A stretch of DNA of 64,000 nt, from the NCBI GenBank assembly GCA_036873755.1, contig JAVTVY010037060.1, positions 62,001 to 126,000 on the forward strand, written 5' to 3'. Positions 2,911 through 60,789 of this stretch are shown here, piece after piece. Positions within the stretch are counted from its first letter, which is position 1, and every line of letters starts with the position of its first letter. Under the pieces are notes generated by a model, which did no database searches, was not told the origin of the DNA, and was given only the letters and a program-made list of their open reading frames with translations. Source of the DNA: Hanleya hanleyi. Lineage: Eukaryota; Mollusca; Polyplacophora; Lepidopleurida; Hanleyidae. Made by a program: the position numbers and the translations under genes.

Positions 2911-3012
2911 GACTACCGTTTCCCACAACGAGAACATTTTTAAGTACAAAAAAAGTGTTCATTCTGAAAAAAATAAATATTATTATTTCGCTTTTAGTGC
3001 CATTAAGATAAA

Positions 3013-8100: not shown

Positions 8101-11100
8101 CATGTGCCACAAGGAAAATGTAAGTTGCATATTGATCAGTTAGTGGTTGGAGCCGCTTAAAGATGTAATCAGCCTCAAATCGGGCTGAAATCAATGTCTC
8201 TCAAACTCAGCGAAAGTGACATATGTTACAACAGGTACAAAATGAAACACATTTGACCACAAAAAACTAAACTTGTTTCTACCATTCACGAGAAAATAGA
8301 AGGAATTAATCTTTAAAAATAAACAGCATGGCATACCGTTTATTTTTCCACGGCCGTGTCAACAAGCGTATACACGTATGGTGCATTCTACCAACGTATG
8401 CTGTGCGACATTAACGAACCGTGAGCACGAGCCATGACGTTATCCCATGGCTGCAGCTGTGCAGCATTCAAATTCGTGAGCGTCGCTACGTCACTCATTC
8501 GTCACGCAGTGACGTCATTTTTCTCTCCGCGTACAACACACACTCAATGGCGAGACAGAAAAGCCGTCGAAGCGGGCAGAGTTACAAATTTCTCTGACAA
8601 GATATTTCTGCATTAGTTGTATATGACGATCCCACTAGCATCAAATATAATACATATGATGCTTTGGTAATCTCCCCTGCTGAAAAAACGCACAGGGGAG
8701 TGTTTACAAAATCCGTACATTTTGAGGCTGATTACATCTTTAAGTATTAACTGTTCAAATTTGCCTCAAGCTTGATGAACGTAAATCCATTTGCTACTAC
8801 TGTATATCAATATAAAGAGATTAGACCAGACTCCTGTCTCAGTTCGGATGATTGTTGTCCGTCTAGATAGCTGGGTTAAGGTTTGAGAAGGTTGAAACAG
8901 GATCAGCATTTGGTGTAAGATGTGACATTGAGAAGGTTCATACTACACCAGATTGTGGTTTAGATGCGACATTAAGAAGGTTCTAAAAGGACCAGATTTT
9001 GATGTAGGGTGTGCCATTTAGAAGAACATTTTATAGCATGGTGTGGATAGTGGAACGACAATGCAATTTTGGAGTATTTCTTTCTCTTCAACTCTTACAC
9101 CAAATTACCAGGCAGCAGAACAATGTATAATATTCTATGTGAAGCTGGAGAATGTGTATACCACCCACTTGACAGCAACTTATGTCTAATCGATGAGAGC
9201 AATGCAAGTCGACCAACCTCAGGTCACTGTCTCGGTGCCCGAGTGGTCTAAGTCGCTTGGCTGGTGACCGCTAGCCTCGCACCGCTGAACTGGCATGGGT
9301 TCGAGCCCCGTATGTGCATGATTGAAAGATTTTTTCAGTTACTTGCCGACTGGCGGTGGTTCTCTCCGGGTACTCCGGCTTCCTCCAACAACCAAACTGG
9401 CTGTCAACATGCGAGTGAAATAACCTTGAATGTGACATCAAACCAAATCCTCCCCCCCCCAATGTCTTGGTCTGGGGATTCTTGTTTGACTCACATACCA
9501 GCGACACATCATGAAGTATAATTTACATGTACTCTGTTCTACAGTAGGCCTGTGTATGGATCCTTCCCTACAAACCATCTGACCATACAACCAGTTTGTT
9601 GTAGTTCATCAGTTCACTGAGGTGTTTGTGCTCATGCTGTAATGTATAATCCATTGTTTCCTGTCCTTGTAGGTCTGAGTGTTAGCATTACTCTTGCGAC
9701 CGGGCTACTCGAGATTACAGTATCTGTTGCCAGAGATACGGCGCTTCAGGATCGCACCACCAGGGGGCTACTGGGTGTTTACGACGGAAACCCAGACAAT
9801 GATTTTACCCTTCCTAACGGGACTGTACTGTCACCCGATTTGCCTGAGGAACAAATATTTCACCAATTCGGGCAACTATGTAAGACCACATCTCCGACTG
9901 TTTGATGTCCGAGTGAAACATCTTCTGTAAATCCTATAAACAAGATAGTAGAGCAGCTTAGCAAATGGATAGTCTTGCTCAAGCTATTTTGCTATGGCTT
10001 TTCAAGAGAAAGGGTAAAACTTACAGGATAAGCGGTATATTGATCAGTGTTTCTTATTTCACATAATAACAATGCAGCACCCATCCCCACCAAACTATCT
10101 CCATCTGAAACGTTCACCAGCAGTGCATGGTTAAAGTAATGTTGGATTCTCTGCAATCCACATGTACGTCATAATTAAACACCGATTGTTAAAAATGGGG
10201 TTCAATTTAGAGTGCAGCCTTCAAAAAGGATTTCTATTTTAATGTATATGCCTTTCGTATTCTGCTGGGATACCAAAAGCCCCCCGAGTCTATATTTTTC
10301 CAGTCTGATGGATTATCCATGTATCCAACAAGGAAGTAAATTGTTTCCATGGTTTATATTTTTCCTTTTTGACAGGGTCAGTTCAGGAGTCCATATTTTC
10401 TTACCCTGATGGATTATCGATGGCCAATTTCAGTCATCCAGACTTCGTGCCTTTTTTCCTGTCCTCCTATAACCAGTCGGATGTGTTGAAGGCACAGGAA
10501 ACTTGCGGCAATTCCAAGGAGTGTATTTTTGACCTGCTGACTACAAATAATTCGGTAGTGGCTTTGAACACGAAGACTTTAGAAGAAGACTACCAGACGA
10601 ACATAGTCCTGCTCAGTAAGAAACCTTGCTTGTATAATTCACGTTCCTATATGCTCACGAAATACATGTTCAATCCCTATTGACATTCCTTCCAGCACGT
10701 TGAAATACATTTATCATGTTATTTTATGATGTTATGACGATAGAAGGCTTAATAGTCGACACTTCATATTATATTTAGGAAAATTCCTAAGTTTTCTATT
10801 AGTGGGAATTATCTGATAAATTGCCAATATAAATATGGTGTTAATTTCTTCTCCAGACAACACTGCTCCGTCAGTTGATGGCGATGTTCTGATGAACGCC
10901 ACAGTAGGCCAAGTGTCCACAGCATTGGTATCAGCCAGTGACGCAGACGGAGACGCCATTGACATCTTTCTGGTCGATGGACTAACTGCTAATTTAATCA
11001 ACTACAACGTATCGGTCACTGGTAATAATGCCGAGCTTCAGTGGATTCCAGAGAGCTTGGACCAAGTTGAAATCAGGTATTCTAACCAGCACGGGACTTG

Positions 11101-14100
11101 GTTACGAGATGCTGCCTAGTAGCTGTATAAACTCGGAGATGGGTACCATGCATTGATAACATCAACTGGGACTTAATTATTCCGTAAATTGTTTATATAC
11201 CGTACATATTTTTTGTCTCGAGAGGAAATTGTCCATATCATTTATTTTTGCTGAGAACTGCATACAGGATAAGGTGCTTAAGTTTAAACTCGCAAACTAT
11301 TGAACCGTATTACCAATTAATATTACAATTCACCATGTTCTATTGACCAATGGTATGTGCAAGAACTGAACCTAAATTGTTCTTTCAGATTTGGTGCCAA
11401 TGACAGTCAGGGTGCGTATTCTCCGGAATATGTTGTCCGTGTACGATTGTGCAGTGGCTGTAGCAACCATGGAAGCTGTCAGTTTGAAGACGCAACCATT
11501 GAAATCTCTGGCAATTCCAATCTGACATATGAAGATTTCCATGTCGTTCCTTGTCTTTGTTATCTGGGATATTCAGGTATGATTGAATGTATTCTTGCTC
11601 CCATGCCCTCAAATTTAGATTTGGCCCAGTTATAACAGAAATAGTGATCTCTTACAATTTTCTGATGTCAGCTGGCCATGCAAGACCTGAAGAATTGATT
11701 TCATCAACCGGGTATATGGCTAGATGTCTATATTCCGGGGTTACAGCAGTTATTCTCAATAATTCTGTTCCATACTTTTCAGGGATCAACTGTGATGGAG
11801 ATGTTGATGCCTGCCTGGATTCGCCATGCTCTCAGGGATCCAACTGTACAGATCTATCCTCCGATGAGCACTATAGGTTAGGGATAGGTTATAGATGTAG
11901 CGACTGTCCCCTGGGCTATCAGCTGGATGGCGATAAGTGTTCAGGTACCTATGCATTAGTGATTTTATGGCATTTATGCCGCTTCGGGTATTCTAAGATT
12001 AGTTACGCTACTAACTTTGATCCACGAAGTCTTAATTATGAAATCCTGTGCTAACAAAGTCATGATATCTACCACATGTACAATGCATAGGTATTAAGCG
12101 GAATAGGACGGTATTTCTTTTTCAAAGTTCATCGATATATTCTCCTCCAAAATAACCGCATACATTGCACACTATCAGACAGTTAATCAGCTTCAAATTT
12201 TTAGAGGAATTCTCAACTCTGAATTGAATTGTGCATAATGACGCCTGGTCGTGTGCCTGTTGTACACCATGTATTCATAGTCTGTCAGTTACTTGCCGAA
12301 GGGCGGCGCTTCTCTCCGGGTACTCCGGCTTCCTCCACCAACCAAACTGACTGTCACCATATGAGTGAAACAATCTTGAGTGTGACATTAAGACAAATTC
12401 CCTCCCTCCCCTGTATTCATAACTAAATTAATCCATGTGTAATCTTATTTAGACTAATGTGTTTTATCTTTTAAACAAGACTAATATCAATTTGACTAGG
12501 TCTGTATTGTTTATGCTATGTTTTGTATCGAGAAGCCTTGTTCTGCAGGTGATAGTAGTTTGCGCACAATGAGATTAATTGTCAAAGTTGGTAAATAAAC
12601 CTGAAAGATATGTATAAACAGAGCGTTTGACCAAATATATGTATTTGCGAATATATTTAGCTTCTGTATATTCAGTGTCTGTGTACATATGTCCTCATTC
12701 TTATAGATATTCAGGAATGTTCTAACTCAACTCTGAACACGTGTGACCAGGATTGTGAGAATACCGCTGGTGGTTATATCTGCTATTGTAACTCTGGATA
12801 CAGAAAACTCGCGACTGGATCATGCTTCGGTGAGACAATTTTGTATTTAATTTAATGCATGTGTGACAACCACAATACTCAATTCAGTATATATGGCCTT
12901 TCTAGATTTGGAATGCTTGAAATGTTGTCCGAATCTAATGTGAGGAAATTATTATGACGCTGTATATTTTGTGTTTATGAGAATCAAAGCCAAGACCTGC
13001 TCAATAGTCGTATTATTGTTCAATTGTCAAAATGACCTGAAATAAAAATGTGTGAATTATCCAAGGGAGGTAATTCGAGTTCTGCCATTATGTCTCTTTC
13101 AAAAACATAATCGAGTGCTTGGTTGCCGATATTTCAGTGAAGAATTGGTACCTACATGTACAAAATGCAAAATCAAATATTTGTGTCCGTTGCCTGTTAC
13201 CTGATTGCTAAGCTGAGTGTCCCTGTATTCCCACTGACGTTTCTATTTTGCAGACATTGATGAATGCGGAGAAGGTACTGGAACTTGTAATCAACTATGT
13301 ACAAACACAGATGGGAGTTATGACTGTTCCTGCTATGATGGCTATACTCTCAGCTCAGACCGCTCCACTTGTGATACAGGTGAGTCTTGATAGTGACATG
13401 TTAATAACTCGGAACGCTTCACTTGTGATTCAGGTGAGGGTTGATAATAACATGTTAATAACTCAGACCGCTACATTTGTGATACAGGTAAGGGTCAATA
13501 GTGACATGTTATTAACTCAAATTGCTCCACATGTGATACAGGTGAGGGTTGATAGTGACATGTTAATAACTCAGATGCAGGCGAGGGTTGATAGCGACAT
13601 GTTAACAACTCAGACCGTTCCACTTGAGATACAGGTGAGGCTTGATACACGCTTAAATCTAAAATGAAACTTGCTCGTAAGTTGTTGAAATTACCCTTCA
13701 AGTGTGTCCACAGGGACTGCTCTTTAAATTTGGTCTCTGTTCAACACTTTAGTTTTAAGCGTGTAGTGAAGTTTTACCAAATTAAGATGCTCCACTTGTC
13801 ATACGGGTGAGGGTTGATAGTGGTGAGGCTTAATAGTGACAGGTTACCAACTCAGACCGCTCCACCTTTGATACAAGTAAGGGTTGATTGTGACATGTTA
13901 CCAAATTAAACCGTTCCACTTGTGATGCAGGTGATGGTTGATAGTGACATGTTACCAACTCAGACCGCTCCACTTGGGATACAGGTGAAGTTTGGTGGTG
14001 ACATGTTGCCAACTTAGGATGCTCCACTTATAGGGCTTGATAGTGAGTGATACATGATAGTGACATGTTACCACTCAGACCGCTCCACTTGGGATAAAGG

Positions 14101-17100
14101 TAAGGGTTGATAGCGACGTGTTACCAACTCAGACTGCTCCACATGTGATACAGGTGAGGCTTGATAATGGTATGTCACTTGCAGCTCCACTTGTGATATG
14201 TTACCGCTCTCTGAAGCAACATTCAAGATACGGCCAGACCCATTTAATGGTTCTGCTATGTTGGATGTGTCTCCACGACCTTATCAAACTGATTTTTTTT
14301 TTCAAATTTAACATCCTAAAACCTGTTACCCCTCAGCCCATAGGGCTGTGGGGTCTTGTCGGTGCCATGCACGTACGTCCGTCCGTCCGTCCGTCCGTCC
14401 ATCCTAGCGTCCGTTCGTCAACGTGCTTTTGTCGGGCTTGACCAAACTTTGGTGAGAGCTCTCTGAATGTTGACTGATGAAATGATTACATTTTCAGATG
14501 GCTATGATGATTTCATGATTTTTAATAATTTTTTTTATTATTTATTGATGGCTTAGCTTTTGCACTGTTATCTATGCCCATCGGGAACCCTTGGTTGCAT
14601 GTTTCATTGTGACTTTTGAAGGTTCCCTGATACAAGAAAGCCTGGTCCATTCAAGATTATCATTGGATGGAAGCCCCCAATTTCCATTTATCTGGCAGCT
14701 TACATGATGCTACACTTGTTCAACCTATGCACTACCCTAGGGAGGATTTCCCCACCCTTGGGGCACTAAATGTTATTGGACTTTTTCCCATCCACAGCTT
14801 CTCCGCTTCATGTGATATGTATGAAATGCAGTGTACATGGTTTTTTCACAACCACATGCGGAATCATCTAAAATTTATTCCTGTATAGTAATAACTAACA
14901 GGTTGGTGACATTATTTTATTTCAGAAGTACAAGAGGAAATAACGGGCTGGGGGTTCCCGCAGTATCGAACCCCTGTTAGGTTTGAATTTCGCGTCGCCT
15001 TAAATGAAGGACAACATCAATGTTGCTACATTGATTTATCCGAAAGCTTTTGCACAAAGCATATTTTATTTCAGAAGTATAATATGAAATAACTAGCAGG
15101 GAAATCCCTGCAGTAGCGAACCCCTGTTAGTTTGGATTTCGCATCGTCTTAAATGAAAGACAACATTTTTCTTCAATTTTGCTATTAAATCATTCTACTC
15201 CACATATCATTTATCCTAAAACTTTTGCATGAACCATATTTGTGTCCACACCTTTAACTGGTACAACATAATGCTTAAATTTTTGTCATCAAACATTTTA
15301 CTGTACCTTGGAAATTATTTAAAACGGGTGATTAGGAGAGCCCATTTTTAGCCGGACTCTGGGCAATTTTGAACCAGTTTGCATACCTGGAGCTTAAGCC
15401 CCCCCCCCCCCAAAATTATGATAGTGGTGGGCTTGTATCGATCATTGTTTCTATGCCATTAACTTGTTATCACTTGTGCAATGCATAAATTGCCACTGAT
15501 AAATCTATACTTTCTTGCATGCTGTAATCCCAGCACATCACTAACGTGAAAACGAAGTCTATTATATACTTAGCCAAGTTGACATGGCTTCGTTCGTTCC
15601 TCACTACTCCATGATGCCTCTCAATGAACTTATATGTACACTCCGGGATCACACGGCTCCATGGGTCGTTCGGCTCTATACACAAGAATTCGGTCTACTG
15701 AGAGAGAAATACAGTTCACATCAGGCTATTTATACAGATGGTTCTAAAGATGGTGAGAGAGTAGCATGTGCTACTATCTTTAGTTCCAAAACTAAAACGT
15801 ATCGACTGCCAGGTACAAGTGCCATATTTACTGCAGAAGCAAAAGCTCTATTATCAGCTCTAGAAGGTATTGGATCCACTAGAAGGAAAAAATATGTCAT
15901 ATTCTCAGATTCACTGTCATGCCTTAAAGCAATTAAAAATGGAAATTCCACTCATCCCACCATCTTGAAAATTCTACAATTATATGACACCAGATTTGAT
16001 CAACAGATAGATATTGTGTTTTGTTGGGTGCCTAGTCATGTTGACATCAAAGGCAACACTGAAGCTGATAGATTGGCTAAGGCAGCTCTAGATGAAGAAG
16101 TTGACCCTGTTGGAATACCATCAGACCATCTATCTGCGCTTATGTAAGAAAGCTGTTTCAATCTTTATGGGATACTACGGATAATAACAAACTTCACGAG
16201 TTCAAAAAAACGGTTGGTTATACTCACCTGAACAGTCATAAACGTTTCGACCAAGCCATGATTAGACGATGTAGGATCGGTCACACACGATTAACTCATG
16301 AATATTTACTAAAACAGGAGCCGATTCCAAGGTGTATACCTTGCCATGAAGATCTCACGGTGAAACATATTCTCATAGACTGCATAGATTTTAAGACTGT
16401 AAGAGATACTTTTTATCGAGCAGCTACGCTGGAAGATCTTTTTAGCAGAGTGAAAGAGGATTGTATTTTAGGTTATTTGAGAGAGATTGGTTTGTTGTAC
16501 ACATTTTAATGTTTGTACCTGTTTTAACGCATTAGTTTACCGAGTTTTGAATTGATGACTTAGAATTTTGTTTGATCGTCGCTATATAGCTGAAATATTG
16601 CTGAATGCGACGTTAAACCTTATTTCTCTCTCTTTCTCGGCTCTATCCGGCAATAAAACAACCCTTCTCAACTCTGTCAATTGTTTTTATCGAGTTCGGC
16701 AATGAGTTTGATTGCCGTGAAGAGGCAATAAAACAACCCTTGTCAACTCTCTGTCAATTATTTTTATCGAGTTCTGCAATGAGTTTGATTGCCGTGAAGA
16801 ACTCGTCCGTCTGCAATCAGTCTTCAAACATCAACGGTCGGTTGACTTGACCGCCATGATTTTAGTACAGGTCATGTGATCAGCAAAGGTCGTGCAGATC
16901 ACGTGACCTGTACGAAAATCGTGGCGGTGAATTCAACCGACTGTTGATGTTTGAAGACTGATTGCAGACGGACGAGCTCTTCACGGCAATCAAACTCATT
17001 GCAGAACTCGATAAAAATAATTGACAGAGTTGGGAAGGGTTGTTTTATCGCCGCATAGAGCCGAACGACCCATGGAGCCGTGTGATCCCGGAGTGTACAT

Positions 17101-20100: not shown

Positions 20101-23100
20101 TCGATTGAATTTTGTCGAGAATTTTGGGAGTTATTGAATCTAATAATGTGATTGAATGGATCATTGTCATCGTGTATATTATTTTTGCCATTTTAGCATG
20201 TGATTCGTTACACTGGGGATCAAACTGTGGTAGTCTTTGCGACTGCTCAGACAAGGCTCAGCAGTGTTCTACGACCAATGGTTGTATATGCAAACCGGGC
20301 TGGTCTGGTCCGTCATGTGACCAAGATAACAATGAATGTAACACGGACCTGGCATCAACCTGTGGCCTACTACAGACCTGTGTAAATACACTTGGATCAT
20401 TTCGATGTGATTGCATCACTGGATACCAACTCGATTCGTCTAGTGTATGTGAAGGTAAGTAGCTGTATACAGTATTGCCCAGCACTGCTCAAAATAACTT
20501 TGTGCACAGTGTTGCCTACCACTGCTCAAAATAACATTGCACGTAGTATTGCATATCACTTCTCAAAGTATCATTGTACCTAGTATTGTCTATCACTGCT
20601 CAAAATAACATTGTGCACAGTATTGCCTATCACTGTTCGAAATAGCATTGTACATAGTATTTCCTATATCTGCTCAAAATTACATTGTACGCAGTATTGC
20701 CTATCACTGTTAAATCACCGTTGTACAGTATTGCCTGCCCACTGCCCAAAATAATATTGTACGTAGTATTGCATATCACTGCTCAAAATATCATTGTACA
20801 CAGTATTGCCTATCACTCCTCAAAGTAACTATCAATATAACGCTGTACACAGTATTGTCTATAGCTGCTCAAAATTGCATTTTACACAGTATAGCCTATC
20901 ACTGCTCAAAATAACGTTGTATAGTATTGCCTGCCCACTGCCCAAAATAACATTGTACGTAGTATTGCATATCACTGCTCAAAATAGCATTGCACACACT
21001 ATTGCCTATCACTGCTCAATATAAGATTATACAGGTCTTTCAGGGCGATCCCCCAAATTTGTACTGCATTCTCATCACTCGATGTATCTCTCCTCATCAC
21101 TCAATATCTCTCATCACTCAATATATCACAAGACTGTACAGGTAAACCTATATTTGATGAGTTTACAATTTGAGATAGATTGATATCGAGTTTCAAATCC
21201 AATATGTGGTCACTTTCTTGGATATCTACCCAATACAATCAAGCCCAACCAATAACTTGAATGACAATCTTGATATGGTGGTACGTGGCCTACTTTTTGA
21301 GACTAGTGCTACTGGTGAGAGCTGTAACCTTCCGTGGCCTATGTATTTTTGAGACTTCAATGATAGAAAGTTGAATAAATGTTCAATGTTTTTTTTCCAG
21401 ATATTGATGAGTGTCTGGTGCCTACAATGTATGACTGTGCTATCATGGCATCCTGTGTGAATGTGGATGGAGGGTACAGCTGTCGGTGCAATACAGGCTA
21501 TCAAGGAAATGGTACCCACTGTGACAGTAAGTCTGAGGTCATGTACACACAGATGTCATAGGGTCAGCTGTTTCCACTGAGTGAAATCATAGGTCTCGAC
21601 TGGTAAGCTCAGGTGGAAATATCAGGAACAACAAGGCCGCATAGCATCGATGAAGGCTGCATGACTGAGCCCTTCCTGTCTGACATGATACAGTTAGCTT
21701 TACACTGTGATATCATGGGCTTTCTCGAAAAAACATCAGTCGATCAATAATCATAAAATACATGTAGCTAACTCTCCTGATCCTATAATCTCTATGAATC
21801 TCCGGTATGGGACTGGGTCTGAATCCAGATACCATCGGCCTATTAATCCTTTCATCTCTAGTAATCTACACCCAGGTCCAGATGTCATGATGTTATCACC
21901 ATGGTTACTATCAGGGTTCAGTATTTTATATTTCAGTGAACAATTGCAAGTAATGTATTGAGAAATTCTTAGAATTTTTTATTGATATATAAAATTTTCA
22001 TTCTGTAAAACTGTTTGTAAATGTACAGTTTCAAAGATGACAAGTGCTTCTAGTCGCCAATGGATAAACAGACCATGACTGATTGACCGATCGGTGGATA
22101 GACAATGTATGATTGACCAATCAGTGAATAGCCATTGGTGATTGACAAATCAGTGGATAGACTATGTGTGACTGACCAATCACTGCTCAATTAACTCTGA
22201 AGAGTCAAGTCGTTGACATTGAGAAATATGAAGAATACTGAGATATTCATCAGATGCGGTCACTTGATGCGACCTGAAGGTGGTAAACTGACATCACCTG
22301 TTCGTTTTCCCACAGATATAAACGAGTGTGATTTGAGCATTGACCAATGCGAACATACATGTGAGGACAACGTAGGCGGGTACAGCTGTTCGTGTTATCG
22401 AGGATACCTTCTCAATGACGACCGACACACCTGCCAAAAAGGTGAGAGATTCTGCATTATTGGTTGGCAAATAAGTAAGCGTTTGTATTACCCGTACATT
22501 CTTCAATGGCAGTCCTGTAACTGACATTTGCAATATGTCATTCAGTGTACTGGGGGTACATTTTGTGGTGTATGGATTGAGCAATTTTCTCATGTATATC
22601 TACAGAATTTATTGTAAAATTTAAGCAAACCATGAATGCATTGTAAATTTTCTGTGCCGTTAACAGAAGCGGATACATGTGGTAGTTCTGGCCTCTCATG
22701 TCAGTATGACTGTAGACTTGACACTGGAACCCCTAGCTGCTTCTGCTCATCAGGCTTCCAACTCTTCAACCAGACCCATTGTCAAGGTGAGTACATTGAT
22801 CTCTTCACCTTGGACAATATGATAATACTGGGCTGGACATTAATAGTTCACTCATCAGTCACTGCTTCCGCGGTGTGAGCCTATCAGATGTTACTTGAAA
22901 GCTCATTCTTATTGTCAGTACTTAAGTTTGATTCTATGTTGACTGGATTATGGCTTCTTTGTGTTCAACTATTGGCCCACTTCATATTTCCAGTGTAGCT
23001 AATTCTAATTTTACCGCCCTGGATTCAATTTCATTAAACGCTGCTGAACAATATTTTTTCATTGTTCCAAAATTATTGGCCAAACTCTACAATCTTTAAT

Positions 23101-26100
23101 TTGACACTGTGACACAAATTTCATCAAAACAATATTCAATAATCAACATGTCTTCTTGCAGATGTCGACGAGTGTTCAGCTGGAACAAATCCGTGCTCTC
23201 AGAACTGTACAAACACATTTGGAGGATTTTATTGTACTTGTGAAGAAGGATACAAGCTGGGCAATGATATGAGGACTTGTGAGGGTAAATATAAATTGGG
23301 CAATGATATGAGGACTTGAGGGTAAATATAAATTGGGCAATGATATGAGGATTTGTGAGGGTAAATATAAATTGGGCAATGATATGAGGACTTGTGAGGG
23401 TAACTATAAATTGGGCAATGATATGAGGACTTGTGAGGGTAAAAATAAATTGGGCAATGATATGAGGACTTGTGAGGGTAAATATAAATTGGGCAATGAT
23501 ATGAGGACTTGTGAGGGTAAATATAAATTGGGCAATGATATGAGGATTTGTGAGGTTAAATATAAATTGGGCAATGATATGAGGACTTGTGAGGGTAAAA
23601 ATAAATTGGGCAATGATATGAGGACTTGTGAGGGTAAATATAAATTGGGCAATGATATGAGGATTTGTGAGGTTAAATATAAATTGGGCAATGATATGAG
23701 GACTTGTGAGGGTAAAAATAAATTGGGCAATGATATGAGGACTTGTGAGGGTAAATATAAATTGGGCAATGATATGAGGATTTGTGAGGGTAAATATAAA
23801 TTGGGCAATGATATGAGGATTTGTGAGGGTAAATATAAATTGGGCAATGATATGAGGACTTGTGAGGGTAAATATAAATTGGGCAATGATATGAGGACTT
23901 GTGAGGGTAAATATAAATTGGGCAATGATATGAGGACTTGTGAGGGTAAATATAAATTGGGCAATGATATGAGGATTTGTGAGGGTAAATATAAATTGGG
24001 CAATGATATGAGGATTTGTGAGGGTAGATATAAATTGGGCAATGATATGAGGACTTGTGAGGGTAAAAATAAATTGGGCAGTGATATGAGGATTTGTGAG
24101 GGTAAATATAAATTGGGCAATGATATGAGGATTTGTGAGGGTAGATATAAATTGGGCAATGATATGAGGACTTGTGAGGGTAAATATAAATTGGGCAATG
24201 ATATGAGGATTTGTGAGGGTAAATATAAATTGGGCAATGATATGAGGATTTGTGAGGGTAGATATAAATTGGGCAATGATATGAGGACTTGTGAGGGTAA
24301 AAATAAATTGGGCAATGATATGAGGATTTGTGAGGGTAAATATAAATTGGGCAATGATATGAGGATTTGTGAGGGTAAATATAAATTGGGCAATGATATG
24401 AGGATTTGTGAGGGTAAACATAAATTGGGCAAATGATATGAGGCCTTGTGAGGGTTAACATGAACTGGACAATGATCTGAAGAAGGTACAGGTCAATATG
24501 AACTGACGACTTGAGCAGGTAAATAACTGATAGGATAATAAGAGATGGGCGAATATTTCCATGTCAGTATTTCTTGAACGTAATACATGGATTGTCGAGT
24601 CAATATTTCGGAGGTGTTCCAGATTTCCTTATTACAGTTAACCATAGCTGGCCTTGGCTTTTTTTGACCTCTCCATGCCTGGCGGGGGGGGGGGCGAAAT
24701 GGCCCCCCCTAATTATTTTTCTTACCCCTTGATCTAGGGGGCTGAAACTTATCACACTATACCCTTGGGTCAAGCTCTACCAGAAAATGTAAAAACAATC
24801 CAAGATGGCCGCTTTGATGACGTCACAGTGACATCATTTTCAAAAACGGCATTTTTGGTCGATTTTTCGGTCAGATTTTTCCGAATTTTTTTGCAATTTC
24901 TCCGCAAAAACTGCATGATAAATTAGTAAGTATTAATGTGATGTGCAGTAAAATATTTTTTGGCCACTTTTCATCGCGGAAGAGTAGAAATTTTTAAGAA
25001 ATATGACAAAAACATCACTTTTCTGATACCCCACGTTGCCGCCATCTTGAATTTACCCATGGTTCTCTGCTCGGGGGGAGGGGGGGGGAGGTGTATGCAA
25101 ATAGGCTCAAAATGACCCCAATACGATAAACTATAAAGTCAGCTCTCCATGTTTTGTCGTTCCGGAGATAGCAAAGAAAGTTTGGTGGGGGGGGGGGGGG
25201 CATAATGGCCCCCTCCCCAGGCCAGGTAGGGTTTAAGCAAACAGATTTCCTTGGATATCTAAGACATATACTAAGTACATGTATTTTAAATAGCCTGTCT
25301 TTATCCCTTTCTCGATCCGTCCAGTGTGTGATGTCCATCACTGGGGCCCAGACTGTTCTCGATCCTGTGGGTGTGGCACTGGGTCTGAACGATGTGATCA
25401 GGTGTCCGGTTGTGTCTGCAAGCCCGGCTGGACCGGATACCACTGCGAAGTGGATATAAAGGAATGTGACAACAACAACACATGTAGAACAGCTGATCAT
25501 CAAGTGTGTTTGGAGCTTCCAGGATCATACCTATGTGACTGTCAACCAGGATATGTCTTCGATCAAAACGGCACATGTCAAAGTAAGACACAAAAACTTA
25601 CCGGAGTTGAGAAGTATATTAAATTGGATTAGAAATATAATTCAAATAGTCGACGCTTGTAACTTTTTATCAATAATTCCGACATCATCGATTTATTTGG
25701 AGCGATTTAATATCTAATTCTAGCGTATTTTAAAGCCAGTATCGAATTCACTGCGTCAGTGGTCTGCCAGAAAGACCATTGCCTACATTAATATTGAAGC
25801 ATAAACACCCCGTACATATTTATATGTTGCCCCTGTTTCAGACGTGAACGAATGCCAATCTGAGCAGCCTTGTTCGCAGGACTGTGTTGATGAGATAGGG
25901 AGTTATAGGTGCCGCTGTTTTGTCGGGTTTCGAGATGTGTACGGCAACGGCTCTACCTGTTTGGGTAATTATACACAATTTAGAATAACGGAGCTTTTCT
26001 ACAGTCCATGTTCTTCACGGGGAATCTGCATCCAATGATATTGTTTGCTGGAAGGAATAATTTCAAGTAGTAGCTGTGAATATAGTACTCAAATATGTGA

Positions 26101-29100
26101 TATAGTTTGTTTTAAAAACGTAAAATACATAAATGATCATGTTTTTGCTACAAATCAATGTGAAGCTGGTTGCGGTAAACCTCTTAATAATTCAATCAGT
26201 TGATCATGAGAATACATGTATGGGATAGGAAGGATTTCTGTGGGGGTAGTTAGAGGAAGGTGATAAAATATGATGGGTGGAGGTAGGGGACGAGGGAGTA
26301 CATGGGAAGGGCGTTGGGGAGGAGCTTGGTTGCACAAAACAATCATTCCATGTAACTGTTCGGAACAGTACTTGAATGTGTTCCAACGGCTCTATTTCCT
26401 ATCATTGTCCTGACTGCTGACCATGCTCTATTTTGTAGACATTGATGAATGTGAGGAGGGAACTGGTGGATGTGAGCAGATCTGTGTTAACAATGAGGGA
26501 GCCTACGTCTGTAGTTGTTCTCAGGGATTTAAACTAGACCTCAACAGGGCCACCTGTGTCAAAGGTAAACAAAACTAAGACCTCGACAGGACAACCTGTG
26601 TCAAAAGTAAACAAACTAGACCTCTACAGGACCACCTGTGCCAAAGGTAACAAACTAGACATCAACAGGGCCACAGTCTCGGGGTTAGATCTTAATCAGA
26701 TTAAATAAAATCTGGTCAAATTACGATCAAGTGAACGGTTTTTGACAACATCGTTGGTTTGCATATTCTTGACATGCGCAACTGCATTCCTATAGACTAA
26801 AAAACAGATTCTCGAACAACAGAGATCATAAGTGAAGAATACATCTGTGAAGGAAGCAACTTGAGTGTTTAGACATTTCGCAGTATGGTTGTTTGTTCTA
26901 CAATTTTTTAGCATATGCAGACACGAAGTTATTTCCCATTGCTGTTCCCAGAATTTACAGTTCCCGTTTGCAAATTCAAAAAAGTTATTTTCGAGTACCA
27001 GTTTGATACCTGAGAGAAAGAATTCCTTGTTAAATCGTGTGATATCAGCTTGTGTTTAGATAAGTGACTTATATGTATAGCTAGCTTGTGATACTGTTTT
27101 ACTAGCTTGTCTTCATATATATTTGTGTTTTATGTCTGCTTAGATTTTGGTGTTAATACCGTCTTATTAACTTCATTATAGATATCCTAGGTATTAATGG
27201 TATTTCCATTATGCACGCAGAAATGTACAGTGACTGACCGCTGAATGTTGAAAATATCTTCCAGATCTTACGAATGACCCCTGCTTTGATTTCTCCCATT
27301 CCTGTTCTTATGGCTGTGGCTGGTTGAGACCGGGTACTAGAGACTGTTTTTGTCCCAAAGGGCAAAATTTGCTGGGGGACAATGCCACTTGTTCAGGTAT
27401 GAATCCGACAGAATGTTAAAATGATTACACAAATTTAGCACCAAATCTAGTTCTTGCAATCAAAACTGGTGACTGACAAGAACATTGCATTGAATGGGTT
27501 AAGCAAAAATGAGCGTTTTTACCTCTATTTTAAGAGAGGTAGGTCTCGCTAACCTGTTTATAGTCATGTAAAAAAATGTCTACTTCACAGTAACTGCAAT
27601 ATCAGCAGTTTGTCAAAAAAATAGATATCTTTCCTATTTCATGAATCTGCTGATTGCAGTTGATGCATTAACCTCCAATAGAAGCTCCATGTCTGATTTT
27701 GTCCATGAGTCAACGAGAGTACTTCCGAAAATTTGAGAAATCTGCCAGGGATTTTTTTTATACAAATCTGTTGAATTGTCTCCTATTGAATCCATTACAA
27801 CGAATGTTTCATTGTAAAACCACATACATTTCAATATTTTCATGTTTAATGTAATCTATCTATCCTCAGCTGTTAAGACCCGACTGACAGCACAACTGTT
27901 GTTGGATATACCATTTAGCTCTGAGCTGACTCTCCCATCCAGCAGTCTACATAAACGTCTCAAGCATGATATACAGGAATCTGTAAGTATATTTTAAAAA
28001 AATATACAACAACACGATTAACGTCACAGGACCTACGAAGTAGTGCGAGGAAGATCATTTGGGGGTCCAAGCGTAATGTTATAGGTCACTTAAGTAGGTC
28101 AAATTTCATCAAAAGTAGGTCAGCTTAGAACTTGCTGGTAACAGTCCCCTAATGCAAGTTCATGCCAAAAATCAAGATTCTAAAGTCAACGGTTCTCATT
28201 ATTTTGCCGACGAAATGATTCAGATGGACTGACTCACTCACTCACTCACTCATTACCGGACAATTTGCAAATGAGAGCCTACTTCGTAGGATTTTTTTTT
28301 AATGCACTCGTGAACACATGAGCAGTGTGACTAACGTCACAGGACCTACGAAGTAGAGTAGGCATTAGGACTCGAACGCGAACTGAACTCTTGGAAATCC
28401 CCACCCCCAGTTGAAATCCTGCCTATATTAAGATGAGCACCGCCCAAGTCAGAATCGCCAGTGATTTTCATCAAAAATCACCAGGAATTTTCATCAAAAG
28501 TAGGTCAGCTCAGAACTTGTTGGTAACAGTCTTCTAATGCGCCTTCATTCCAAAATTAAATAACGATCGCCGATTTAATTTTACAATTTTTTAACTAAAG
28601 GAAACAGATTGAATAATAAAGGTTCAGTAGATTTCAAGCTTTACGTGTGAAAATACATTTACATCTCTTTAATGGTTTTCAGTGCCCTTGTCCAGGATCA
28701 AAACAACTTTTTGAATCACATTATTTTCCCAACAATACAACAAATTTTTATATATAGTACTATAGTAGAAAGGTAGCATTTATGTAGTTTACGGTAATTC
28801 AACTCAAGACCAACACCTTCTCTGCACAAGATAATAATGATTCTATGTCATTCTCCTGAGCATAACCGGTACAAAGACGAATAAATAGCGTCTCTACATC
28901 ACGTTGTTATCTAGATATATGAGAACACATTTTGGGTATCGGCAATCTGATGAATGTACTATTCCGGTTTTCTTGTTTCACGTTATATTCTATGGCGGTT
29001 GATCGGTGATTTTCTTCATTGATAAACGTTAAACCACCTCAGCTTCGTTGTGTGAATCGGAATTGCATTGCTGTGACACACCAACACACTCCGTGGCAGT

Positions 29101-32100
29101 GATTCTGTATCCCCTAATCAAAATGGATCAAGATTTGAAATGACAAGAAAAATTTAGACATATTTTGTTTACACATGTAATTTTTTGTTTAAATTATATC
29201 CAAGTGTGATATATAGTCAATATTCAGAAGGTACAAAAAAACCTCAAGTTATCATATTTTCACATCATGATCAAAGTTACTTTATCTAGTTAAATTCTAC
29301 CAAAAGAAGACCCTTTAAACATGCCGTCATGGCTTTGTTTCACCCTCAGTAAACTTTTATCATTGTCGCTCACACAGACTAATCTGAAGGATGATACCAC
29401 ATCTTTCTTTCTTCTGCTGGGTTATTGCACCAGGCTGACTTAATTGGTTGATGTAGGATATTTCACCATCAGTGGGTAATTTGACCTGAATTTGAAGCCT
29501 GATGTGGTCAGTGATGAAATGTTTGGATGTGAAATAGGATACACGTTAAAGGCCACAGTTTACATATATCTATAACAATATACTGAATTGTGTGTATTGA
29601 GGCTGGCATAGCGGTGTAGATGAATGCACTAACAAATGATGGAAAATTAGCATTTCTTATTTCATAAAAACAATTACGGATGGCATATCTCACCACTGTG
29701 TTATATATACAGTGAAACATACAGCCAAGGGTTCCCGATGGGCATGACAGTGTACTCGCTGAGCCATCAATAAATAATAAAAAAAATAATTATAAATCAA
29801 ATTTTAATCAGAATTCGGTCAACTCAAAACTTGCTGGTAACAATGCCCTAATGCACGTTCATGCCAAAAATCAAGGTTCTAATGTCAACGGTTCTCCTTA
29901 TTTTGCCGACGAAAGGATTCGGATGGACTGACTCACTCACTCATTACCGGACAATTTGCGATCTGTAGCCTACTTCGTAGGAATAGAGATTGAGTCTATA
30001 TTCTTAAAATTGTCCATCTGTTAACATTAATATTACTCATTGCTACTCATAGTAAGCTAAATGGTTCGTTAACACATGTCACATGAAGTTAGATGCAGAA
30101 ATGTGAATAAGTATAAAAAAAATGTACTTTATTTCAGCTTCACCTTGGATTGTTAAATATCGGAGGCTTCACAGGGGTCCTGTTAAAACAGTTGAGGTGA
30201 GCTAGACTTCAGGAGCATCCTTCTGTTTGATTCATACTTCACTTCAGTGTTTATATTATTTAACCCTACCTGGCCTGGGGGGGGGCACTTCCCGCCCTCC
30301 CCCCCCCCACCCTCTGTTGGTTTTTTGCTCCTATCTTCGGAACAAAAAACAAATAAGAGCTGAAACTTATTGACTTTTTACATTATCATATTGGGGTCAT
30401 TTTAAGCCTATTTGCATGACACCCCCCTCCCCCCAAGCAGAGGATCATAGGTAAATTCAAAATGGCGGCCATGTGGGGTACCAGAAAAGTGATGTTTTCG
30501 TCCTATTTCTTCAAAATGTTTGCTTTTCTGTATGGAAAAGGGGGTAAAATCTATTTTATTTTATATCAGATTATTATTTACTAATTTATCATGCAGGTTT
30601 TGCGAAGAAAAAACAAAAAAAAATCGAAAATTCTGACAAAAAAATGACCCAAAATGCTCTTTTTGAATATGACGTCAGTGACGTCATTATGGCGGCCATC
30701 TTGGATTTGTTTTACATTTTCTTGTAGTGCTTGACCCAATGATATAGTGTAGTAAGTTTCAGCCCTCTAGCCTTAGCGATAGCGAAAATATATAGTAGGG
30801 GGGCACTTTCCGCCTCCCAGGCTGCGGTACACTCCAAATCGACCAGGCCAGATAGGATTACTGGATTAAATTTATCCACAAATACTGATTATGCATGTAC
30901 CTGTATTTCTGTACTACAGATACAGTCATATATGTCATAAATGCTGATTATAGCTGAATGTCTGTATCCGACTGAGTACAGTTCATAAATTATAGGTATA
31001 GCTATGTCTGTACTGCAGGCCGTGTATTATTTATGAAAATTCTGAAAGAATACAGTTGATAATTGATGGTAATCGCTGTATGTCTGTTCTTCAGATACCG
31101 TATTAGTCCAGTTGAATACCGTGTACAAAAGATGATTATGGCCGTATGTCTATACTGCCGGTACTGTATTAAATACGAAAGTCATGTTGGGCACAGTTCA
31201 AGAATGAGTATTACAGATGTATGTCTGCACTACTGGTATTGTATTATATATGAAAATTCAAAATATTTCCACTGAGAAAAGGTACGCCGGAAATCTTATT
31301 TGGAATGATGTTCACTTTTTCGTCATGTCAATTGTATCGATGGATAGACCTTTGCTTTTGTTTTGTTTTTTATTGTAGTGATAACACCGACAGTACTGAT
31401 ATAATATTTGACATCGTACTTGACCACAAAGTAACCATCAGTGACACAGTGGATATAGCGAGCTCTCTAGAGTACAAGTATATGCTGGGCTACCTCACTG
31501 TGGATACAGAGAATGTCCTCCTACTCTCCTCGCCATTGATACAGGGATCCAACAATATATTCAGTGAGTCAGTTCTTAGGTCAGCAACCCGGGGTTATAA
31601 TTATCAGATATCTCGGTGTTATAATTACCAGGCGATAACCAGGGGTTATAATTATCAGACAGTATCCTGAAAATTATAATTATCAGACACCTCAGTGTTA
31701 TAATTACCAGGCGATAACCAGTGTTTATAATTATCAGACACTATCCTGAGAATTATAATTTTCAGACATCTCAGTGTTATAATTACCAGGCTGTAACCCT
31801 AGGTTATAATTATCAGACACTATCCCGAGCATTACAATTATTAGAGAGCATCCCTGAATTATAATTATCGGACACTCGTGTTTGAAATTCGAGCAGTATC
31901 CTAAACATTGCAATTATCTGGGCGGGAAGTTCTATGCTTTTTATTAAGGAGATAGAGTCTACAGGACAACAAGAATGAAAAGGGCTCGTCAAAGTAATTT
32001 TATACTGAAATCCTTCTGGAATAAACTTGCCCTGACAAGTAATCATCCACTTGTTCTATTTCAATGTTCGATTACTTTTTACATTTCAGATCCGGTTGAT

Positions 32101-35100
32101 GGAATTGCCACATGTGACTGGTTTATCTGTGAAGACAATGAGCTATGTGTGCAAAATCTGAAAGAGTTTGATTGCCAGTAAGTCATTTTATTCATATTTT
32201 ACCTTATGAAGAATCGGTCTTATTTGGTCTATGGTTGAAAAATGAATGATGTCTGACACCTTGTTACACGATATTTAATTTTCGTGCTGTACCCGAGGGA
32301 TTTGCTTTACCACAGTGGCACAGCTCACGAAATTGGGGTCGAAAGGATGGAAAACCAACCAAGCTAAAACATTTTACTACATGTAGCAGTATGATAGGAT
32401 GGAGTGCATTGTTCAGACTAGATTTTGTCCTTGACCCAGCCTACACGCATGAAAAGCCTCCTGTTACTATTCTCCGCCCAGTCCACAAATCTCATTATTA
32501 TTATCCTCAATTCAGCCTAGAAATCTGATATTACTCACACCCCGCCGGGAAGTCTGTTTTCCTCTACCCACCATACAAGTCTGTTATTATCTTCTACCCA
32601 ACCTACAAATCGCGTATTACCCGCTAGCCATCCTATGTCTCCCGTTATTACCTTCTACCCATCCGGCAAGTACTCTGTTGTTACTCTAGACCCAGCCTAC
32701 AAATATCCAGTTATTACCCACGACCCACCTGTCTCCTGTTATTATCCTCTATCCAGCGTACCAGATTCATTGTATTATCCTCGACCCAGACCACAAGTGT
32801 GCTGTTATGATCCTCTACCCAGCGTACAAATACATTGTTACCCTAGATCCAGCCTACAATTCTAATGTTATTAAGCTCTAGCCAGCTTACAAATCTCCTG
32901 TTAGTATCGTCGACCCATCCTGCAAATCTCTGTGATTATCTTCTATCCAGCCCATATGTCTCCGGTTATTACACAACACTTACTACAAGTCTCCTGTCAT
33001 TACCCTTGACCCAGCCTAAAAATAATTATTATGCGCTAGCCATCATATAAGTATCCTCTTATTATCCCATATCCATCCTACAGGGCCCTCGGTGGCTGAG
33101 TGGTCGAAGGCCATTCGCTGGTGATCGCTAGCCTCACACCAATGAACCGGCACGGGTTCGAGCCCAGCTGATGCATGTGTGAAAGTTTGTTAGTTACTTG
33201 CCGACAGGCGGTGGTTCTCTCCGGGCACTTCGGCTTCCTCCACCATCTAAACTGAATGTCACCATATGAGTGAAACAAACTTGAGTGTGACATTAAACCA
33301 AATTCCTCCTCCCACCCTCCATCCTACAACTTCCCTGTTACTACACTAGACTCCGCCTACAAGTCTCCAGTTATTACCCATGACCCAGCCTATAAGTCTC
33401 ATGTTATTATCCTCTACCAAGCCTACAAATCTTGTTATTGTCCGCTAGCCGTCCTTCAAATCTCCTGTTATTATCCCCCGTCCAACCTACGAGTATCTTG
33501 TTATTACCCTTGACCATATTACTCCTGTACATACATGTACACCTGTATATGGGAAGTTTGCTGAAGCTGTCCGCTTTCATTGCATGGTTTTGACATTTGC
33601 TACACACATTTCATTGATTTGAGGATCAATTGCATGACCTGAAATATTAATTTATCGCGGTTTGGACTTCGTACATTTCCAATGATAAGGTTTTCTTAGT
33701 CAAAAATTGACATGAACACCTGTACATGAAAAGGTTGCTCTACTTGTGTGCTTTTAATACTGCTGCAGCTTCAGCGGATCAGCTCATAAGGTGAAATATT
33801 GGGGTTCTCAGAACGCTTGCTACCCTCGTCCCAGCCTATAGGTCTGTCATTATCCTCTACGCAGTTGATAAGTCTTCTGTTATCATTCTCCACTCCGCCT
33901 ACAGGTATACTTACTATCCTCGAACCAGCGAATAAATCTCCTGTTATTATCCTCGACCCAGCCTATAAATCTCCTGTTATTATCCTCTACTCTGTCTACA
34001 AGTCTTATTGTATTATCCATGACCCAGCCTACAAATCTCCTGGTAGTATCTTCGACCCAGCCTACAATTCTCCAATAACAATTTTCTTTTGCTTTACTTT
34101 TTACCGAATGTAACCATGCTAGCTCTGGAATTTATTCAGTTTTGTTGAGTGTGAGTACCCACTCAGTGTTACTGATGCAACCTAGTCATTTTATGTGTAC
34201 ATTATTCTGCTGTAGGCTGGTAACAACAACGACAGACAGCCCAACCATTTTCTCCACGATCTTGGAACAGACTTCCTCTTTCGTCAGTGACCTGACATCT
34301 TTCGTGACAACACCAGCATCATCAGCTTCAACAATGACTCCGACAACAAGAACCGTGACTCTAGAAACAGTGACCTCACTCCAAGAAACATCTGAAACGT
34401 CTCCATTGACTACAGCGGTTCAGACGACCTCCACAACTGGTAGGACAACATCAACATTGGGTGTGACGACCTCTACGCAGAGTACGACATCAACCATGGA
34501 TATGACGACCACAACTGCGGGTACGATAGCAACATTGGGTGTGACGACCTTCACACAGGACATGACAACATCAACATTGGGTGTAACGACCTTCACGCCG
34601 GGTACGACATCAACCATGGATATGACGACCACCACTGCGGGTACGATAGCAACATTGGGTGTGACAACCTCCACACAGGACATGACAACATCAACATTGG
34701 GTGTGACGACCTCCACGCCGGGTACGACATCAACCATGGATATGACGACCTCCACACCGGGTACGACAACATCTTTGAACCCCTCACGAGTTATGACAAC
34801 CTCTGGCCTGACGACCTTCCAACCGGGCATGCCAACATCAACCATGGATGTGACGACCTCCACACCGGGTACTACAACACCTTTGAACCCCTCACGAGGT
34901 AGGACAACCTCTGGCCTAACGACCTTCCAACCTGGCATGCCAACATCACTCATGGGTACTGCATCAACCAATGGAATGTTGACCTCGACACCATCCAGAA
35001 TGACACAGGACATCTCCATAACAACATACAGAATGGCTAGGAAAACCTCAATGACACCATCCACCTTGGCTCAAACAACATCCACTACACCATCCACACT

Positions 35101-38100
35101 GGCTCAAGCAACATCCACTACACCATCCACAGCGGCATTCACGACATCATCCGCAATGGCTCAGGCAACATCCACTACACCCTCCACAATGGCTGAGACA
35201 ACATCCACTACACCATCCACAGTAGCTCAGACAACTCCCGCGGCATCATCCACAGGTGCTCAGACAAAATCAACGACACAATTCACATTGGGTACAACAA
35301 AATCCAGCCTACCTCCAACCAGTACTCTGCGTAAGTACCACATTTGCCTCAGTTGAATTTTCTCCTGCTTTCATTTGAATGCGATTTCGTTAGATACAAA
35401 CACTCGTACATAGTATATAGGTATATTAATCATGATTCTCCATCAACGTTTACCATACTCCCAGTGTATATATCAGATTCTTGAAAGAACATGTATATTT
35501 CTTGCAGCTGTTTCAAGGATAATCAAAGCAGATATTTCACTCGATATGGTGTTCAAGGCAGGATACAGTAATTTGAGTTTGCCAGAAACTACTACTCTGA
35601 AGGCCAATCTCTTAACAGTGGTGAGTGTCCGTTTTTTGGTCTGCGCGTCTTGTTTAATTTATCTAAAATTTGATTCCTTATTGTCAGATTATACCACACG
35701 CCATAATCTTTATGCGATTGACATTTTTTCATGGTCCACTCTAGCTATCCTTTTGTGACTAAGTATTATATCGTCATATATATCTTCTATCCACATACAA
35801 TAAAAGTATATGCATTGTGCAGAAAAAAAACGTATTTTGATGAAAACTCTGCATCCATCAAAACTCTGCACCCATCAAAACTCTGCACCCATGGCTGTTT
35901 GCAGTGTACTTTTGTTGATGTGTACACACATCCGTACATAATCTGCCATGCTGAAGCTCCGCAGGATGTCAAGCGAGCAGAAAAAGGGTGCTGCCAATTT
36001 CATGTCTCACTAAAATAAATTCATATTATGCTTTGGTCATGTTGGTCAACTCATCTGGGGTTTTATTTTTGCAGCTGACCTCGTTGTACAGAGGAACTGT
36101 TCGTAGTTTTTCTTCAGTGTCTATAACCCGCTTTGTGTGAGTATGTACCACATCATATTGATGGGGAAAATAAATGTCCAAATTATGTTGAGGAAAACTC
36201 CCTAATTTGCCACACTACATCTTTCGAGTTTATCAATTACACTAATTTATTAACCTTGCTGAAAGTTGTAGTCATTCAGATTTATTAGACCTACCTGGCC
36301 TGGATTGTTTTAGACTCGTGTAGGCCTGCGTCCCTAAACCTAACCATTAACCCCTGAGCTTGGGGCTGAAACTTACCACATTATCCCATTAGGTCAAGCT
36401 CTACTAGGGAATGTAACAAAATCCAAGGTGACCACTTTGATAACGTCACAGTGACGTCAATTTCAAAAGGGGTATTGGATTTACCCATCTGCTTTGAGGT
36501 AATATGCGAATAGGCTCAAAATGACCTCAATATATTCTCAATATGATATTGTCATATCTGAAGCTTTTGTCTTTGCGGGGATAGGGTATTTATATATTTA
36601 GGTCTCGGCTGTACCGCCGATAAAACTGATGTAGGTCTCAGTAGAGAATTGATACCCTGTAGGTCACAGCTGTGCTCCACATATATCTCAGTAGAGAATT
36701 GATACCTTGTAGGTCACGGCTGTACTGCACATATATCCCAATAGAGGATTGATACCTTGTAGGTCACAGCTGTACTCCACATATATCCCAGTAGAGAATT
36801 GATACCTTGTAGGTCACAGCTGTACTCCACATATATCCCAGTAGAGGATTGGTACCCTTTAGTTCACGGCTGTACTACACAGTAGAGGATTGGTACCCTG
36901 TAGGTCACGGCTGTACTCCACATATATCCCAGTAGAGGATTGGTACCCTGTAGGTCACGGCTGTACTCCACATATATTCCAGTAGAGGATTGGTACCCTG
37001 TAGGTCACGGATGTACTACACAGTAGAGGATTGGTACCGTGCAAGTCACGGCTCTACTCTACATATATCCCTGTCTATCTTGTATTTTCCTGTATGTTGT
37101 ATTATGATATTGTCTATTCCAGGAATGGCTCCGTAATTGCTATTCATGAGATCTACCTATCCACTGATGAGGGAAAACCACAGATGACTGATGTGAAGAT
37201 AGCCTTGACGTCTGTGTTTGCCAGTAACTCTATACAAGTGGGCGGACAGTTCATATCACTCAAAGGCATTCCAAACATTATATCCAATGATGAAACCATG
37301 AAAGGTAAACTTGGTTTGGACGCTGGAAGATTGTGGCTAAAAACAAGTCTAACAGATGTAGCCATTATATGCTTGATGATACCAAACACAATTTATTTTT
37401 AATAAATCATACAAACCTCATTCAGAACTCACACATACACAAGTTATTAGAACGAGTTATTTGCGAGTTCTTTAATAAGGCACAAATAGCTCGCATGGTC
37501 AAACTTTCAGACGTGACGATCAATACGCGATCTGTTAGAACTGTATGAGTTAAACACGAGTTCTTAACTCTTGTCATCAGGGCTGATTTTCCTTCATACG
37601 AGTTAAACAGGAGTTAGCCTTGTTTGTAGTGACCTTCTCACACGAGTTATCCCAGTTATTTGCATGAAAAATGAACCCCGGACTAATCCAGATGGTGCTA
37701 ACCATTTCCTGTTTGAATTTCAAATCCTGAGAAACTATACATTCATTTCTTCCAAGAGTAAGTGTTGTGTTGAAATTAGGAAGACTTTGGCCAGTAAACA
37801 ATTTCTAATACGCTTTAGAAGTAATTCTGTGTATACTACTATTTGCACTGGCATTGTAATTGTTATTTTCAGCACATTTAACTGAGATTAGAGAATTTTC
37901 TCTGAAGATCTGCATGTACAGAATCAGCTATACCCATCCTGATAAATTATGTCCTAAAGCTCCTGTAATTTTGACTCAAAATTTAAACATGGTAAATGTT
38001 GCTTCAAGCTACACCACGTGACTCTACATTCTGCAGATCGTGATCAGATTTGGTTTACATATACCAGAACAAATCGTGTTTGAATATCAGTTATTTGCGA

Positions 38101-57800: not shown

Positions 57801-57858
57801 TTAACCCTGCCTTGTCATATTTCTTCACAATTTCTCCTTTTCCGCGATGAAAAGTGGG
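57801..57858 (-). mobile_element. Truncated piggyBac-like MITE fragment
   Basis: TTAACCCTGCC terminus, then CATATTTCTTCA and CCGCGATGAAAAGTGGGC, the family interior in inverted order. It directly abuts the truncated RNase H of the Gmr1-like element. Confidence 0.65.
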
Positions 57859-57990
57859 CTAAAACGGCACTAGCATCTACAGCCAGTTTAAAAGGTGAAT
57901 CAAAATCTGGTGCTGAAAGAACTGGCGCGCTCTTCAGTATGGCTTTCAAATTTTCAAAAGCTGACTCGCATTCATCGGTCCAAACATAAC
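57858..57990 (-). pseudogene. RNase H start, truncated
   Basis: The minus strand encodes VWTDECESAFENLKAILKSA and then FKLAVDASAV, the tether and first catalytic Asp of RNase H. It is out of frame with the RT ORF above and cut at the MITE fragment. Confidence 0.8.
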
Positions 57991-58997: not shown

Positions 58998-59092
58998 ATT
59001 TACATGACATAACAGTTTGTGTTTACGCCTGTCAGGAGTCTGAGTTACATAATTAAGGTCACTTAATTTCTTTCAATGACATAAGGACCATA

Positions 59093-60777: not shown

Positions 60778-60789
60778 TTGACATGTGTG

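Follow-up and report, generated by a model that had tools for sequence, protein, structure and literature searches.

Intronic minisatellites, or VNTRs, have in general units of comparable size and show homogenization and higher-order repeats; in the mucin-4-like gene of the chiton Hanleya hanleyi described here, the repeated unit differs in that it includes an exon end together with its 5' splice site (donor), and this happens three times within one gene. Human introns have reportedly arisen from tandem arrays, according to work by Zhuo in 2007. For Drosophila, an origin of introns by tandem duplication has been described (PMC2891723). Both sets resemble the present locus in a tandem duplication around a splice motif; they are cases of intron gain, whereas here a phase-1 intron at an EGF border, probably old, gained only donors, and the similar 5' and 3' borders that mark an intron born by tandem duplication are not found in intron 17. 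Internal tandem repeats at exon-intron boundaries occur in human genes within segmental duplications (PMC2812944); they lie across the boundary, as here, are recent, as the present array seems to be, and vary in number, whereas the present array is known from one assembly. In the human genes, the boundary repeats go together with new introns and altered transcripts; at the present locus, copying was confined to the donor side of an old intron and, to judge from relatives, the mature protein has stayed the same. Tandem arrays of splice sites within one gene are further represented by the dual-specific AGGT sites in the tandem repeats of polyubiquitin (UBC) and VCX3A (PMC10809524), where a single AGGT acts as both donor and acceptor and introns measure whole multiples of the unit. 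In the exon 17 array, neither an AG|GT border nor the inclusion of both intron ends was found: the border reads GAGG|GT, the acceptor lies outside the array, and the intron length is no multiple of the unit. Among open-access papers in PMC, no report of a donor-only exon-end minisatellite was recognized; repeats across exon-intron boundaries are known already, and the present case stands apart from them as a donor-only ladder on an old intron that recurs within one gene. The array at exon 17 is probably a neutral minisatellite that arose at a 5' splice site through duplication, grew by unequal exchange and is removed with the intron when splicing uses the first donor.

The gene and the exon 17 array

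The window, that is, the whole stretch of 64,000 nucleotides that was analyzed, comes from a genome assembly of 2.48 Gb in 52,793 contigs and holds the main part of a mucin-4-like gene on the plus strand (4899-39432), for which 26 exons were modelled. Exons 1-21 of the model yield a single open frame of 1203 residues, and Pfam finds EGF_CA (nine stretches), cEGF, FXa_inhibition, the mucin-4-like C8-3 domain, EGF_3 and EGF. The closest relative in the protein search was a mucin-like protein of the chiton Liolophura sinensis, and the gene product is colinear with a chiton protein (41% over 1286 columns); the top nine protein matches carried mollusc names in seven cases. The gene probably starts upstream of the window, in C32415:32001-62000 of the same contig (L002 to L004), and exon numbers are therefore relative to the model only; within L004, two copies about 1.44 kb apart (~8078-8449 and 9515-9886) match parts of four relatives. 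The frame breaks after exon 21, so that exons 22-26 are less certain. Alignment to the relatives suggests that an exon within intron 3 is missing from the model; tblastn gave no convincing placement for it. Repeats are also present in the coding part, in a long Thr/Ser-rich exon at 34423-35306 (mucin-type, a label from the translation read by eye), and the upstream stretch L002 to L004 carries a 417-bp array of 32 copies. Elsewhere in the window, ORFs at 3007-3816 on the plus strand resemble a putative tyrosine-recombinase element, and ORFs at 57000-63000 on the minus strand a putative LTR retrotransposon polyprotein in pieces.

The features around intron 17 are as follows (exon 17 of the model was exon 18 in the numbering of the initial annotation):

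23162..23284, plus strand: EGF exon 17 of the model, phase 1-1, with six cysteines; the unit takes its exon part from the final 27 nt
23285..23290, plus strand: authentic donor AGG|GTAAAT, giving the protein junction found in relatives
23258..24480, plus strand: 39-bp minisatellite, unit of 27 nt of exon end and 12 nt of intron start
23297..23333, plus strand: first intronic unit, 37 bp, with an in-frame TGA at 23317-23319
24481..25324, plus strand: array-free remainder of intron 17, with its own acceptor (CCGTCCAG) and no relation to the array
25325..25582, plus strand: exon 18 of the model, with one match in the genome (DNA search)

TRF reports 31.4 copies of the 39-bp unit with 95% matches (23258-24480), a head-to-tail array with a unit size in the minisatellite range (about 10-100 bp). 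The unit that straddles exon and intron (23258-23296) equals the consensus letter for letter; it is followed by the 37-bp first intronic unit, which is consensus apart from two missing bp, by 28 units of 39 bp at 23334-24425, and by a decayed 3' edge that consists of a diverged 40-bp unit (24426-24465) and a remnant (24466-24480). Only the first and the last units change length, and this confinement could reflect selection on the first unit, a point that pulls against pure neutrality. Since the unit holds exon as well as intron sequence, the array is a tandem repeat across an exon-intron boundary. The initial annotation had recognized the array and the origin of its unit from exon end plus donor, and both stand; its division of the unit into 31 exonic and 8 intronic nt leaves two mismatches (AAGC vs. 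AAAT) and has to be given up, and its span of 23285..24430 is too short, since the array begins 27 nt within the exon and runs 50 nt further. The two bp absent from the first intronic unit and its in-frame stop were read correctly there (TGA at 23317).

At the level of two mismatches, the unit is private to this exon. A pattern search of the whole 2.48-Gb genome at up to 2 mismatches, in which withheld stretches count as N, returned 29 matches, a count that may be a lower bound, and all of them lie in the exon 17 array; at the same threshold there were no matches elsewhere, none on the other strand and none for a reversed control. Chance origin of the array is excluded because the genome search matches only there and the controls gave none. 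An independent occurrence of the unit elsewhere in the genome, which would have severed the proposed tie to this exon, was thus not seen at up to 2 mismatches, and a dispersed repeat as the source of the unit was ruled out by the same result. A scan of viral contigs with the unit was empty (and carries little weight). Exon 17 together with the end of the preceding intron gave a single match in the genome (DNA search).

Copies within the array are very alike: the 28 full intronic units show a mean pairwise difference of 3.5%, with six variable columns. Units at lag 3 are the most alike, with 0.88 mean differences vs. 1.06-1.67 at other lags up to 14, and an exact run of 189 nt recurs at a lag of 117 nt; this higher-order pattern and the long run are typical of exchange or slippage in blocks of several units. 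The recent amplification or homogenization proposed earlier agrees with these figures, and the array does look recent. Intron 17 itself is probably older than its array, since it sits at a phase-1 EGF border like its neighbors and its acceptor is unrelated to the repeat.

In the neutral account, a tandem duplication would have spanned the donor, taking 27 nt from the end of an old EGF exon and the 12 nt that follow in the intron, and the copy would have come to lie downstream inside the intron; we infer this initial duplication because the unit matches exon end plus intron start exactly. With the first donor intact, the exon, the protein and the acceptor of the intron would have remained untouched and the change would have been near neutral; growth and homogenization would have followed by unequal exchange or slippage, presumably in blocks of several units, as in the 3-unit higher-order pattern. 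Going by the proteins of relatives, the pre-mRNA would be cut at the first donor and the array removed with the intron, and a slip to a later donor would include the stop, the transcript then presumably being degraded. A like process would have taken place at two other EGF exons of the gene (10 and 20).

Arrays are often mis-sized in assemblies, and the copy number given here may be wrong. That the array as a whole is an assembly artefact is highly improbable in view of its ordered variant pattern and decayed 3' edge, and of three independent arrays of like design in the gene. A coding role, as an extended exon with a 13-residue repeat, would suit a unit of 39 nt, that is, 13 codons, and a repeat frame that stays open for 374 codons; its probability is nevertheless close to nil, as the frame of the exon runs into the TGA at 23317, the minus-strand frames are open too so that openness belongs to the unit, a protein search with the array peptide, in which 7,996 candidates were scored, gave nothing at E 0.001, and relatives join the exons directly.

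Donor strength and the site of splicing

The authentic donor of intron 17, AGG|GTAAAT, scores 2.50 bits, below the 3.55 that is the median over all 26 donors of the model, and the U1 duplex of the exon 17 donors has a value of -6.2; the sites in the array are copies of a weak donor. There are 30 downstream donor positions, where approximately 29 near-perfect candidate donors had first been counted: 17 are identical to the authentic site, 10 are altered at positions +4 to +6, and in three the GT context is changed. Because 17 of the 30 are identical over nine bases, the nine-base donor context cannot mark the right site, and an intron that repeats its own donor 30 times, in 17 cases without any change over this length, is a natural test of 5' splice site choice; the choice among equal donors could follow the order of synthesis, exon definition, or nearness to the acceptor.

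Thirteen relatives were aligned, and in all seven that cover the exon 17/18 border it is continuous and free of array peptide (for example, NDMRTCEVCD vs. NDQKTCEACD). Since relatives join exons 17 and 18 without array peptide, the first donor of intron 17 is probably the functional one, as judged from these proteins. The other two array borders are not as clean in the relatives. At the exon 10/11 border, gap columns number 0-5 in the eight relatives that cover it, one of them by gaps only; at the exon 20/21 border, the three covering relatives have 0, 2 and 6 gap columns. No gap at either border reaches the length of the peptide of an array unit. Use of a downstream donor in intron 17 would truncate the protein, as had been predicted: the extension amounts to 37 + 39n nt, which is not a multiple of three, and reaches the TGA at +33. 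The first stops after the donors of introns 10, 17 and 20 lie at +9, +33 and +12; across the first 21 introns the first stop falls between +6 and +156, which makes early stops not unusual in this gene. Selection for a guarding stop in the first unit is possible at most.

In experiments with duplicated donors attributed to Eperon in 1993, the copy nearer the acceptor is said to be favored when the sites are well occupied. Such experiments lend some weight to a regulatory role, in which downstream copies vie with the first donor, some transcripts thereby take up the stop and are destroyed, and copy number tunes the amount of mucin. The 17 downstream sites identical to the authentic donor would permit this competition, every downstream donor would include the stop at 23317, and sites of at least 2 bits are denser in the array (18 in about 1.2 kb) than in the introns outside the three arrays, with one per 560 nt (48 in 26,870 nt). 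We regard such regulation as unlikely, considering the weakness of the donors (2.5 bits, U1 duplex -6.2) and the size of the extended exons, approximately 160 to 1,290 nt by our own arithmetic.

U1 snRNP suppresses premature polyadenylation in introns, a function termed telescripting. The dense donor-like sites of the array could accordingly be viewed as a platform that recruits U1 snRNP, and so aids exon recognition or suppresses premature intronic polyadenylation, all the more as five AATAAA hexamers lie in the array (counted over 23285-24480) and none in the remainder of intron 17. These hexamers are created by the repeat itself, the single sites are weak, and no general function explains why three unrelated units are involved; a U1 platform is very unlikely. 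Titration of U1 by the array is by our own inference also unlikely, because it is a single locus of weak sites. RNA structure was rejected as a driver, as folding of 23240-23480 showed no gain in stability over shuffled sequence (z +1.0).

Further arrays at donors of the same gene

Two more EGF exons of the gene, which the initial annotation had not noted in this respect, are followed by arrays of the same design:

13254..13379, plus strand: modelled EGF exon 10; its donor at 13380 reads CAG|GTGAGT
13354..14198, plus strand: intron 10 array of exon end plus donor, unit of about 54 bp (26 nt of exon and 28 nt of intron)
26439..26564, plus strand: modelled EGF exon 20; its donor at 26565 reads AAG|GTAAAC
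26531..26674, plus strand: intron 20 array of exon end plus donor, unit of 40-42 bp (34 nt of exon and 6-7 nt of intron)

The intron 10 array comprises 14 matching stretches past the exon, broken at ~13648-13788, and includes several donors of the form CAG|GTGAGG, such as CAGGTGAGG; the intron 20 array has three intronic copies, the last one partial. The units of introns 10, 17 and 20 are mutually unrelated. Outside their own exon and intron, probes made from the three units score at most 21-24 elsewhere in the window, within the range of shuffles, and the six matches of the intron 10 unit in the genome at up to 3 mismatches all fall inside its own array. Strand skew or R-loops were dismissed as a general driver: the plus strand of the exon 17 array is G-rich (skew 0.75), and the units of introns 10 and 20 are not G-rich as judged by eye.

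These two arrays bring in the dual-specific model, by which the intron was born from, or is spliced as, a tandem array of AG|GT sites. The unit borders of introns 10 and 20 do read AG|GT, with AGGT occurring 10 times in the scanned intron 10 stretch (the one at 13841 is not at a border) and twice in intron 20, authentic junctions included; with such borders, the intron 10 units amount to GT-AG segments of roughly 54 nt. The exon 17 array departs from the model: AGGT appears in two units only (the GAGGTTAAA units) and at a shifted place, the border being GAGG|GT; the distance from the array to the acceptor is 845 nt; the acceptor region of exon 18 has no similar copy in the 1500 nt upstream, which take in part of the array (115 of 500 shuffles were as good); and the intron length of 2040 is no multiple of 39. 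Pyrimidine content before 27 of the 28 array AGs is 0.41 vs. a minimum of 0.53 for the modelled acceptors; before the AGs of intron 10 it is 0.35-0.65, and in intron 20 it is 0.53. The chances of the dual-specific model are slimmer still than those of the U1 platform.

Two additional arrays begin shortly past a donor:

20464..21033, plus strand: array with a unit of about 37 bp, starting 9 nt past the intron 13 donor (20455)
31586..31874, plus strand: array with units of 27/79 bp, starting 22 nt past the intron 22 donor (31564)

For the arrays of introns 13 and 22, no similarity to an exon end was found. The motif ACYTGTG stands near the end of the three array-bearing exons (13379, 23284, 26564) and near that of none of the 23 other modelled exons; this is a post hoc observation and may be chance.

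Donors, acceptors and the genomic background

A 40-nt probe of each exon end plus donor was run against as much as 1500 nt of the intron that follows, and each acceptor plus exon start against as much as 1500 nt upstream; in both cases, 500 dinucleotide-preserving shuffles served as the control. Exon-end copies follow three of the 26 donors, with scores of 56 (exon 10), 66 (exon 17) and 61 (exon 20) and shuffle maxima of 26, 27 and 30, respectively; none of the 26 acceptors has such an array within this upstream range. By our own arithmetic, three of 26 vs. none of 26 gives a one-sided value of 0.12, not significant by itself. Two weaker candidates were not counted, a match to the end of exon 19 located 412 nt into the intron (score 26, shuffle maximum 23, 0 of 500), which is short and single, and a match to the end of exon 25 (score 24), with 8 of 500 shuffles as good.

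Within the gene, merging the TRF list by hand leaves 13 non-coding array loci, of which 12 score at least 100 and one scores 98; an alternative merging that joins three loci of one intron gives 11. Five of the 13 arrays (introns 10, 13, 17, 20 and 22) start within a span that reaches from 40 nt upstream to 25 nt downstream of a donor. Random placement within the own intron puts approximately 1.0 near donors on average, with P 0.0009-0.0018, and if each array may fall in any of the introns, P is 0.0004 (13 loci) or 0.00005 (11 loci). With the limit varied, P is 0.005 (10 nt), 0.0009 (25), 0.006 (50), 0.04 (100) and 0.10 (200), these limits having been picked after the data were seen and the values referring to one gene; starts inside the exon end alone number three of 11 (P 0.02). 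Array ends show no enrichment at acceptors among the arrays of the gene (P 0.57-0.80). The clustering of starts at donors is treated as a lead; as a counterpoint to the neutral account, it goes beyond what pure neutrality and chance predict by themselves.

The genome is repeat-rich, with many minisatellites. In 17 arbitrary 10-kb stretches (L008 to L024, 170 kb in all) there are 42 array loci with units of at least 20 bp, or 2.47 per 10 kb and 14.1% of bases, a background that consists of contig starts and perhaps has more repeats than average; the gene has 15 array loci, coding arrays included, which makes 4.34 per 10 kb and takes up 13.9% of its bases. Loci L002-L024 supplied 43 units of 20-100 bp, two of which contain donor-like sites of at least 4 bits vs. 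a mean of 2.9 after shuffling letters singly, and with no enrichment in these 43 units, donors as a common minisatellite seed genome-wide were set aside.

Three independent cases in one gene and none at acceptors suggest a simple rule on where duplications are tolerated, which can be checked in any annotated repeat-rich genome. The asymmetry would be understandable if the duplication of an acceptor, by placing a new AG upstream, were not tolerated and that of a donor were. A wider claim would make donors, unlike acceptors, places where minisatellites repeatedly arise or are safely harbored; introns would gather ladders of their own donor, ladder length might modulate splicing from one individual to the next, and stops in first units would be kept as a guard. 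This claim is doubtful, if somewhat less so than the regulatory competition among donors considered above. Two arrays of the gene lie on the acceptor side: a 26-bp repeat of 2.3 copies (5341-5399) takes up the sequence leading to the acceptor at 5406, with its end 7 nt from the exon, and a 50-bp array (36639-37071) stops 52 nt short of the acceptor of modelled exon 25.
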